Source of the DNA: Acidobacteriota bacterium
Lineage (GTDB): Bacteria > Acidobacteriota > Holophagae > Holophagales > Holophagaceae
Reading direction: 5' to 3'
DNA length: 64,000 nucleotides
Assembly (NCBI GenBank): GCA_016192145.1
Contig: JACPUT010000006.1
Span: 248,001-312,000 of the forward strand
The position numbers and the translations under genes are program-made. Numbering within the stretch: the first letter of the stretch is position 1; each line of letters opens with the position of its first letter. Below are positions 10,664 through 61,798 of the stretch, piece by piece. The notes below the pieces were generated by a model. The model did not search any database, was not told the origin of the DNA, and saw only the letters and a list, made by a program, of their open reading frames with translations.

Positions 10664-10729
10664 AGCCACGAAGTGACACGAACGGGCACGAAGGTAGAAC
10701 TTCGTGCCCGTTCGTGTCCCTTCGTGGCT
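10664..10729. repeat. Intergenic hairpin of CACGAA-type words
   Basis: Arms 10664-10693 and 10700-10729 are reverse complements over 30 bases with a single mismatch and a six-base loop. Each arm consists of near-repeats of (A)CACGAAG / CACGAACGGG. It is one of the strongest of the window's hairpin family. It lies between nuoN and the efflux adaptor and would be expected to form a very stable RNA stem. Confidence 0.92.
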
Positions 10730-13652: not shown

Positions 13653-13740
13653 AAACAGGATGCACAGGATAGACAGGATGGGCTCCGGACCTAGCCCAGG
13701 GTTGGCTTTTCCCATCCTGTTCATCCTGTACATCCTGTTG
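13653..13740. repeat. Intergenic hairpin of ACAGGAT-type words
   Basis: Left arm 13653-13682 and right arm 13711-13740 are complementary at 26 of 30 positions. Each arm is three copies of the word ACAGGAT(G) at 10-base spacing. The loop is 28 bases. It lies between the permease and the MFS gene. Confidence 0.88.
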
Positions 13741-17224: not shown

Positions 17225-17352
17225 GGAACGCGAAGGGCGCTAAGAAAAGCGCGAAGAGCGCGAAGGAAAAGCTGGAAAGCCGCAATGACTAAGCCCCCTT
17301 CTAGCTCTTGCTTTGGCGCTCTTCGCGCTTTTCTTCGCGCTCTTCGCGTTCC
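17225..17352. repeat. Intergenic hairpin of GCGAAGAGC-type words
   Basis: Arms 17225-17262 and 17315-17352 are complementary at 35 of 38 positions. The arms consist of GCGAAGA / GCGCGAAG words. The element separates tpx from the DUF4136 gene. Its left-arm word (GGAACGCGAAGGGCGCT) is nearly the same as the border of the 312-bp repeats at 33509 and 38082. Confidence 0.9.
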
Positions 17353-22196: not shown

Positions 22197-22278
22197 AACC
22201 ACAGAGGTCACAGAGGACACAAAGAAATGCCGAAAGGCGGCCTCGCTTTTCTCTGTGTCCTCTGTGACCTCTGTGGTT
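22197..22278. repeat. Intergenic hairpin of CACAGAGG-type words
   Basis: Arms 22197-22221 and 22254-22278 are perfectly complementary over 25 bases and are made of CACAGAGG(T/A) words. It lies 12 bases upstream of the ycaQ-like start, so it could overlap that gene's promoter or leader. Confidence 0.93.
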
Positions 22279-24723: not shown

Positions 24724-24795
24724 GCCGGGGATGAACGGGGATTGACGGGGTGAAATGCGGTCTTTCATCCCCATTTATCCCCGTTCATCCCCGGC
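24724..24795. repeat. Intergenic hairpin of GGGGATGAAC-type words
   Basis: Arms 24724-24755 and 24763-24795 pair with a few mismatches; the words are GGGGATGAAC / GGGGATTGAC at about 10-base spacing. It lies between convergent genes. Confidence 0.88.
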
Positions 24796-29748: not shown

Positions 29749-29826
29749 TTCGAGTCCCCTTGGGACTACCAATCAAAAAGCCCGCCGTGAGGCGGGCTTT
29801 GATTGGTAGTCCCAAGGGGACTCGAA
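29749..29826. repeat. Inverted partial duplicate of tRNA-Glu 3' end plus terminator
   Basis: 29749-29786 and 29791-29826 are near-perfect reverse complements (36 paired positions, a two-base length difference, loop GTGA). The right arm is the 3' end of the tRNA-Glu gene, including its CCA and the terminator stem. The left arm therefore is a second copy of the tRNA 3' end on the plus strand, without the rest of a tRNA. Confidence 0.9.
29776..29801 (-). terminator. Terminator after tRNA-Glu
   Basis: On the minus strand, GCCCGCC and GGCGGGC form a stem with loop TCAC, followed by TTTTTG. It lies immediately downstream of the tRNA 3' end. Confidence 0.75.
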
Positions 29827-50427: not shown

Positions 50428-50589
50428 CCGGAGATGAACCGAGGTGAACGAGGATGGGCCGTTCACCTCCCATCACTGTTCATCATTTTTAATCACTGTT
50501 CATCACCGGTTGATCTTTAAATGGCCAGGCATGATGCGGAATACGATGGATTCAAAGCGGAAAAGAACTCCAGTGATGAACAGTGATGG
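50428..50589. repeat. Intergenic compound hairpin of GATGAACAGT-type words
   Basis: Perfect 16-base arms are found at 50470-50485 and 50574-50589, and further copies of the same word occur at 50428-50439 (inverted at 50498-50509) and 50492-50507. The word CAGTGATGAACAGTGATGG is the same as in the element at 1137-1204. It lies between two convergent genes. Confidence 0.85.
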
Positions 50590-56735: not shown

Positions 56736-56825
56736 GCAGGGTTAAGAAAGGGCTGAACGCGGAGGGCGCGGGGGTTCGCGGAGAACGCGTTCATCTTTTC
56801 CACCCGAGGCTGATATTTTGAATCC

Positions 56826-60013: not shown

Positions 60014-60739
60014 GTGGCGGGCGTATTCATCACCTTGGAGGGCGTGGAGGGGTCGGGGAAAAGCACCCAGCTCCTCCGCCTTTCCGAGCGCCTCCGCCAC
60101 TTGGGCCTTCCGCTGGTGGTCAGCAAGGAGCCCGGGGGCACGGCCTTGGGCCGGGAGCTGCGCCGCCTGCTCCTGGAACCCCACCCCGGGGGTGAATCCT
60201 GGGCCCCCGAGGCCGAACTGCTCCTCTTCTATGCCGATCGGGCCCAGCACCTCAAGGATGTGATCCGGCCCGCCCTGGAGGCGGGGAAGGTGGTGCTCCT
60301 GGATCGCTTCGAGGACAGCACCCGCGCTTACCAGGGCGCCAGCGGCGTGCCCGAGGAGGCGCTGGATGCCCTCAGCACCCTCGTCCTCCAGCGGCTGAAG
60401 CCCCACCTCACCCTCCTCCTGGATCTGGATCCCGAGGCCAGCCTCCAGCGGGTGGAGGTGCGCAACCTCGCCCTGGAGGATTTCAACGAAACCCGTTTCG
60501 ACAGCGCCCACCTGGATTTCCACCGCCGGGTCCGGGCCCGCTTCCTGGCCATCGCCGAGCGCGAACCCAACCGCGTGGCCATCATCCCCGCCCGGGAGGG
60601 GGAGGACGCGGTGGCCGCCGCCATCTGGGCCCGCGTGGCGCCGCTGCTGCGGACGGCCGGGTTCGCGGTGGACGTAGAAAGGGCGGAACGCGGAGGGCAC
60701 GGAGGGAACGCGGAGAACGCGGAGGAAGGAATAAAATGA
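60014..60739 (+). CDS. tmk: Thymidylate kinase with repeat-derived C-terminus
   Basis: Phosphorylates dTMP to dTDP. P-loop GVEGSGKST near residues 10-18, EPGGTALGRELR, and DRFEDSTRAYQGA with the DR(F/Y) motif are intact. It starts with GTG after AGGAG. At 241 residues it is about 25 longer than usual; the extra tail (from about DVERAERG to the stop) is encoded by the left arm of the hairpin at 60685-60790, whose sequence continues through the stop codon. The enzyme core is complete, so activity is expected. holB follows downstream, a common pairing. Confidence 0.93.
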   Translation: MAGVFITLEGVEGSGKSTQLLRLSERLRHLGLPLVVSKEPGGTALGRELRRLLLEPHPGGESWAPEAELLLFYADRAQHLKDVIRPALEAGKVVLLDRFEDSTRAYQGASGVPEEALDALSTLVLQRLKPHLTLLLDLDPEASLQRVEVRNLALEDFNETRFDSAHLDFHRRVRARFLAIAEREPNRVAIIPAREGEDAVAAAIWARVAPLLRTAGFAVDVERAERGGHGGNAENAEEGIK

Positions 60740-60790
60740 CCTTCTGCTTTTCTCCGCGTCCTCCGCGCATCTCCGCGTCCTCCGCGTTCC
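60685..60790. repeat. Hairpin of ACGCGGAG-type words overlapping tmk 3' end
   Basis: The left arm from 60685 (GGAACGCGGAGGGCACGG...) pairs imperfectly with the right arm 60751-60790. Both are repeats of ACGCGGAG(GA). The left arm encodes the last codons of tmk; the right arm ends 18 bases before holB. Confidence 0.88.
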
Positions 60791-60808
60791 TATTGCCCAT
60801 GAACGCCC

Positions 60809-61798
60809 ATGTTTGACCCCCGCATCCAAGGCCACCAGGCCATCCGCGCCAAGCTCCTGGAACGCCTCCAGGCGGGCAAGCTGCCGGGCACGCTGCTGTT
60901 CACGGGGCCCGAGGGCATCGGCAAACGGCGCGTGGCCCTGGAGATGGCCCAGCGGGAGCTCTGCTTCCGCAGGACCGCCTGCGGCGATTGCGAAGGGTGC
61001 CAACTCTTCCACTCGGATCCCCTGCCCATCGAATTGCCCAACCTCCTGCGCATCGCCCCCGAGGGCAAGGCGGGCCTCATCAAGGTGGGCATGATCCGGG
61101 AGGATGACCTGGTGGAGGGCGGCGTCATCAACTGGGCCAGTCTCAGCCCCGCCCTGGGCTGCCACCGTTGGATCCTCATCGAGGACGCCCACCGCCTCAA
61201 CGGGGCCTCGGCGAACATCCTGCTGAAGACATTGGAGGAGCCGCCTCCGGGCACCCGCTTTCTCCTCGTCACCCACCGCCCCGAGGCCGTGCTGCAGACC
61301 ATCCGCAGCCGCGCCCAGCGCATCGCCTTCGCCCCCTTGGCGCCCAAGGAGGCCTGGGCCGTCGCCTCGTCCAAGGGTTGGCACGAGGGTTCCAAACAGC
61401 GGTGGATGGCGCTTTCCGAAGGCACCCTGCGCTACCTGGAGGAGGATGCCTTCCAGCGCGCCCAGGCCCAGTTGGAGGCCTGGATGCTCCTCATGGAAGG
61501 CGGATCGTTTCCCTCCGCTTCGGAACCCCTGCTGCCGGAGAAGGACGCCGAGAAGGCCCAGAACGAGCAGCTGCGCGAAGCGCTGGAAGTGCTGCTGCGC
61601 CTCGTCACCGATGTCGCCCGCGTGCGCAGCGGCAAGGAACCCGCGCTCACCCCCTGGGCGGATCGCCTGCGCAAGCTGGCCGTGAGGCCCCTGGATCTCC
61701 GCGCCCCCCAGGACCTCATCCACGACGCCCTCCGCAATCTGGCCCGCAATCCCAGCGGGGAACCCCTGCTGCGGGAAGTGGCGCTGAGCCTCGTCTAG
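60809..61798 (+). CDS. holB: DNA polymerase III delta' subunit
   Basis: Clamp-loader AAA+ subunit of 329 residues. Walker A is GPEGIGK at 33-39; a zinc-type cluster CGDCEGCQLF follows near 58; LIEDAHRLNGASANILLKTLEEPPPGT is the conserved Walker B/sensor segment. The C-terminus has the clamp-loader collar helices. Start at 60809 lies just beyond the hairpin right arm. Order tmk-holB is typical. Confidence 0.92.
   Translation: MFDPRIQGHQAIRAKLLERLQAGKLPGTLLFTGPEGIGKRRVALEMAQRELCFRRTACGDCEGCQLFHSDPLPIELPNLLRIAPEGKAGLIKVGMIREDDLVEGGVINWASLSPALGCHRWILIEDAHRLNGASANILLKTLEEPPPGTRFLLVTHRPEAVLQTIRSRAQRIAFAPLAPKEAWAVASSKGWHEGSKQRWMALSEGTLRYLEEDAFQRAQAQLEAWMLLMEGGSFPSASEPLLPEKDAEKAQNEQLREALEVLLRLVTDVARVRSGKEPALTPWADRLRKLAVRPLDLRAPQDLIHDALRNLARNPSGEPLLREVALSLV

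Follow-up and report, generated by a model that had tools for sequence, protein, structure and literature searches.

A probable insertion of a dispersed palindromic repeat at the tmk stop codon, extending thymidylate kinase by a tail predicted to be mostly disordered

How does the gene for thymidylate kinase (tmk), an essential gene, come to end inside a long DNA hairpin? We studied this question in the window, a stretch of 64,000 nucleotides from the genome of a Holophagaceae bacterium (phylum Acidobacteriota). An initial reading of the letters alone (the sequence-only reading) had proposed that a hairpin made of tandem short words replaced the 3' end of tmk. The features referred to throughout are as follows.

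60014-60739, + strand: tmk open reading frame (sequence and ORF listing)
60014-60673, + strand: native coding part of tmk, 220 codons, C-terminal end ...RTAGFAVD (Pfam, comparison with relatives)
60674-60736, + strand: C-terminal tail VERAERGGHGGNAENAEEGIK, 21 codons, from the insert (translation, relatives, codon usage, structure model)
60737-60739, + strand: new tmk stop TGA, within the hairpin loop (ORF and fold)
60674-60808, + strand: insert of 135 nt that separates tmk codon 220 from the holB ATG, replacing the TG of an ancestral TGATG (55 junctions compared)
60675-60684, + strand: left terminal motif TAGAAAGGGC, with GAAAGGRC-TGAACGCGG common to other copies in the genome (copy comparison)
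60681-60729, + strand: 5' hairpin arm, purine-rich, tandem CGCGGAG words (repeat analysis and fold)
60730-60746, + strand: hairpin loop, containing the tmk stop (fold)
60747-60798, + strand: 3' hairpin arm, pyrimidine-rich, CTCCGCG words (repeat analysis and fold)
60809-61798, + strand: holB, DNA polymerase III delta' subunit family; in most relatives its ATG overlaps the tmk stop
56741-56800, + strand: collapsed copy of the tmk hairpin subfamily, left arm kept and right arm mostly deleted

The native enzyme and its tail

The Pfam domain Thymidylate_kin was found intact at Tmk residues 8-204, covering all 185 profile positions (1-185), and the alignments to the best-matching thymidylate kinases in the PDB covered residues 1-212 and none further. 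Based on the alignment of relatives the native protein ends with ...GFAVD at codon 220 (60673). The sequence-only reading had expected a repeat-free protein to end near VDVE, but the V and E that follow GFAVD (Val221 and Glu222) are already encoded by the insert. Tmk is complete to Asp220 in the alignment, and the insert replaced the TG of TGATG alone. The proposed replacement of the 3' end must thus be corrected, since all 220 native codons were kept and only the overlapping stop was lost. We did confirm that the final 20 or so codons are made by the hairpin: the last 21 codons and the TGA fall within the insert.

The codon usage of the tail resembles that of non-coding sequence, with a mean log-odds of -0.23 compared to a minimum of +0.05 over all 21-codon windows of the native tmk. 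An AlphaFold2 model built from an alignment of 10 sequences (mean pLDDT 87.8) was confident in the core and gave a weak helix at residues 221-226 and pLDDT values below 50 at residues 230-241, and the tail is thus predicted to be mostly disordered. Only one tmk was detected in the genome, so the tail is carried by the sole copy. This agrees with the earlier claim that the element is tolerated in an essential gene, the essentiality itself being general knowledge.

The tmk-holB junction in relatives

We compared the tmk-holB junction in 55 genomes of the same family (Tmk identity 58-82%), one of them a congener. In 39 of these the tmk stop and the holB start share letters (TGATG or similar). Tmk stopped at the aligned end, position 217-220 and mostly ...GFxV[D/E], in 44 relatives and was 1-3 residues longer in another nine. 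The remaining two carried longer tails of +10 and +14 residues. The tail VERAERGGHGGNAENAEEGIK was observed in none of the 55 (0/55), in agreement with the earlier claim that normal thymidylate kinases lack it, and the comparison of C-termini gave no sign of a tail shared at the protein level. Its absence from all relatives including the congener indicates that the sequence entered the present lineage later. The nearest relative's junction reads gggttcgcggtggacTGATG, whereas the window has gggttcgcggtggac followed by 135 nt and the ATG. As even the closest relative compared shares only 82% Tmk identity, we infer the precise sequence before the insertion. A wider search of contigs returned distant tmk genes alone (39-48%). 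Compared with the 55 junctions we saw no target-site duplication at tmk, and none of these junctions contained a palindrome that could have served as a seed.

One of the two longer-tailed relatives (+14) is a second case. In this genome (G012), which belongs to another genus of the family, the junction holds 178 nt, of which ∼165 are a different dispersed repeat that extends Tmk ∼15 residues past the usual end. The repeat had 44 matches in its own genome including itself, with up to 96% identity for partial matches and 93% near full length. It thus resembles the tmk insert in using the same junction and in extending Tmk; unlike it, this 165-bp repeat (L029, G012:C6:42567-42744) has TTCAAAACCC-type terminal inverted repeats and no tandem words, and the two sequences are unrelated. 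The presence of two unrelated repeats at one junction suggests that the site is permissive rather than that a tail is useful.

Tandem-word hairpins in the genome

The hairpin at 60681-60798 folded with -83.5 kcal/mol compared to -47.9 ± 4.1 for shuffled sequences (z = -8.7). Sub-threshold Rfam matches were to microRNA models, which respond to any long stem, and were rejected as an identity. Homology of the 3' arm to other copies stops mostly at 60790. The ends of the tmk copy pair only through GGGC/GCCC, with the right end truncated, whereas other copies pair GAAARRGC with GCYYTTTC.

In 464 kb of the same contig we counted 43 tandem-word hairpins, an under-count as the ungapped search passed over two hairpins, that of tmk among them, which were added manually. 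At the same score threshold no hairpin was found in first-order Markov sequences of equal length. Markov resampling was used because reversal leaves a hairpin intact, which makes a reversed-sequence control invalid. The hairpins use many word families, among them CGCRGAG, CGCGAAG, CACAGAG, CACGAAG, CGCGAATGA, CRGTGATGA, GGCTNTN, GGAGRCT and GTCCTTR. With gene positions approximated by a codon-based caller trained on genes with homologues in the relative G004, they lie mostly just past gene 3' ends (median 17 nt), and divergent gaps hold only 1 of 41 compared to an expected 24% (p = 1.7e-4). We found no constraint at the RNA level: arm mismatches at co-directional sites were G-U and A-C in a ratio of 32 to 38. 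The outer flanks of the 43 hairpins share no tag, and the GTAG at tmk is not repeated among them. Within this genome, CRCRRAG-type hairpins have their purine-rich arm on the 5' side.

The window itself contains seven further hairpins with other words (1125-1216, 10664-10729, 13654-13739, 17225-17352, 22197-22278, 24724-24795 and 50492-50587); the words include AGTGATGA, CACGAAG, ACAGGATG, CGCGAAG, CACAGAG and GGGGATGA. Synteny with four relatives (G004, G021, G027 and G031) provided no usable empty site for these other window hairpins. The window-syntenic regions of G027 and G031 (L102, L107) contain similarly designed hairpins whose words differ (GGCTGTC, GCTATCAGCTGTCAG). At 29749-29826 we also observed a perfect inverted repeat of 29 bp that looks like a partial tRNA gene facing its own inverted copy and adjoins sequence conserved in relatives.

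Proposed event and alternatives

The insert is lineage-specific, the native part of Tmk is intact, and both the tail and its stop come from the insert. The most probable explanation, in which we have good though not full confidence, is that a copy of a dispersed palindromic repeat was inserted at the tmk stop/holB start and extended Tmk with a tail predicted to be mostly disordered. The element would be a dispersed, non-autonomous palindrome of the CGCGGAG subfamily of tandem-word hairpins, MITE- or REPIN-like in its behaviour. Its insertion at the overlapping stop and start would have removed the TG of TGATG, and tmk would then be read through the 5' arm, which is free of stops in frame, to the TGA in the loop. 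The outcome would be a protein with its 220 native residues and a mostly disordered tail of 21 residues. The tmk copy probably arrived by a transposition-like movement, and the tail is probably neutral.

A minority reading, to which we give perhaps a quarter of our belief, divides the event into two steps and is also consistent with a moving hairpin. The hairpin would have been inserted 3' of an intact stop, and a later insertion of one base (GACTAG to GACGTAG) would have created the tail. The window indeed reads GAC G TAG AAA, tmk ends with GAC TAG a short gap before holB in four relatives (L002, L202, L203 and L204), and a TAG stop immediately precedes several other hairpins. However, the TAG also matches the left end of the element itself (TTAAGAAAGGGC at 56742), the nearest relatives (82%) terminate with GACTGATG or GACTGAATG, and the excess of TAG stops next to hairpins is weak (p = 0.036).

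We consider it unlikely that a small seed palindrome was enlarged on site into the present hairpin by replication template switching and word slippage, instead of the hairpin arriving as a unit. The sequence-only reading had stated that such elements arise in or move into existing sequence; the later entry into the lineage supports this, and between arising and moving the homologous copies dispersed elsewhere tend to favour moving. Searched against its own genome with a loose E limit of 10, the insert gave 64 matches, mostly to the hairpin arms, and the best copies of similar overall layout were 77-79% identical to the tmk copy. The tmk loop had no match elsewhere in the genome, the copies differ in word number and spacers, and the many word families per genome would be odd for a single mobile element, all of which speaks for local growth. 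Against this, the left end GAAAGGRC-TGAACGCGG, which lies outside the word array, is shared by ∼8 copies in unrelated places, the collapsed copy at 56741-56800 being one of these, and the junctions of relatives lack a seed. Other subfamilies also have homologous loops between unrelated flanks: the copies at C7:340904 and C7:360111 align through arms and loop, the loops with 116 matches compared to 96 for the best of 200 shuffles. The GGCTTTG copies at C7:128243, 135238 and 465327 are 86-90% identical including their loops and share their ends. Judged from these sequence comparisons, movement appears distinctly likelier than growth in place. The ∼150-nt homologous loops of the first pair (G000:C7:340904-341128 and 360111-360343; L123, L124) contain nested GC-rich palindromes.

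Inspection by eye revealed no target-site duplication beside other copies; a plasmid search gave one weak match (Gemmatirosa) and a phage search none. The Y1/RAYT family (Y1_Tnp, PF01797) is present in several relatives but had no match in the present genome (G000, 98% complete), and we rejected it as the mover here. There are two DDE_Tnp_1 matches in the genome.

Selection of the tail for a function in Tmk regulation, interaction or stability is very improbable: a second genus did gain a Tmk tail from a different repeat, but the two tails are unrelated, and the tail in the window has non-genic codon usage, is predicted to be mostly disordered and occurs in no relative.

Relation to known repeats

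C-terminal tails made by repeats are already known. The enterobacterial RU-1, a MITE-like element of 127 bp, is joined to the amidase gene ECA3499 at its 3' end (Delihas 2007, PMC2759123). As at tmk, a small mobile repeat removes the stop, adds a tail past the conserved domain and supplies a new stop; in contrast to the tmk element, RU-1 is unrelated in sequence, conserved and without tandem-word arms, and it affects another gene (PMC2759123). Among the GTAG-tagged REPs and REPINs, the REPs measure 20-40 bp, carry a GTAG or CGTC tag and have RAYT partners (Di Nocera 2013, PMC3733652). Like the tandem-word hairpins they are palindromic and cluster past gene ends, in gaps between co-directional or convergent genes, and like the tmk hairpin they frequently provide a flanking ORF with its stop codon (PMC3733652). 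The tandem-word hairpins differ from them in their ∼50-nt arms of tandem words, the lack of a conserved tag and the undetected Y1 transposase. Rickettsia palindromic elements (RPE, ∼150 bp) are reported to lie in frame within protein genes and to encode a conserved peptide (review, PMC10969869). The tmk insert is similarly a palindromic repeat tolerated in frame, but it lies at the stop codon, with words that vary from copy to copy. In being small, non-coding and dispersed (64 loose insert matches, many of them to the arms only, and, for the wider class, 43 hairpins in 464 kb) the element resembles MITEs, and in lying downstream of genes and avoiding divergent gaps the hairpins resemble REPs and REPINs.

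We found no description of the tandem-word type in the mainly open-access literature searched, most subscription journals being outside its scope, and word strings of 15-16 bases returned unrelated animal papers only. The class looks little described. We tentatively suggest, as a possibility rather than an expectation, that tandem-word hairpins form a widespread undescribed class of bacterial palindromes, mobile or self-generating and without a detectable Y1 transposase, which repeatedly occur at stop codons and write disordered C-terminal tails, with a phylum-wide word grammar (CRCRRAG and others). The locus draws attention to a dense class of hairpins, its word pattern (CRCRRAG three times) being present in 47 of the 119 sampled genomes of the phylum. 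It also offers a well-polarised case of repeat DNA turned into protein sequence, in 56 genomes and one single-copy gene, together with another, independent case at that junction.

The downstream gene holB

The holB ATG was kept and now lies 69 nt past the tmk stop; by eye, no clear Shine-Dalgarno sequence precedes it. The old coupling of the tmk stop and the holB start has probably been lost, and the insert may alter holB; the junction is a natural test site for hairpin movement and operon coupling. In other copies of the subfamily the end is a T-rich tract, e.g. GCCCTTTTTC, whereas the tmk copy continues after its stem with TATTGCCCATGA, and a scan that counted only loops of 3-8 nt identified no intrinsic terminator at the tmk locus. 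The missing T-tract might reflect selection against termination ahead of holB, which is suggestive only. At 60800-60817 the insert creates a short ORF, ATG AAC GCC CAT GTT TGA, that overlaps the holB start in another frame.
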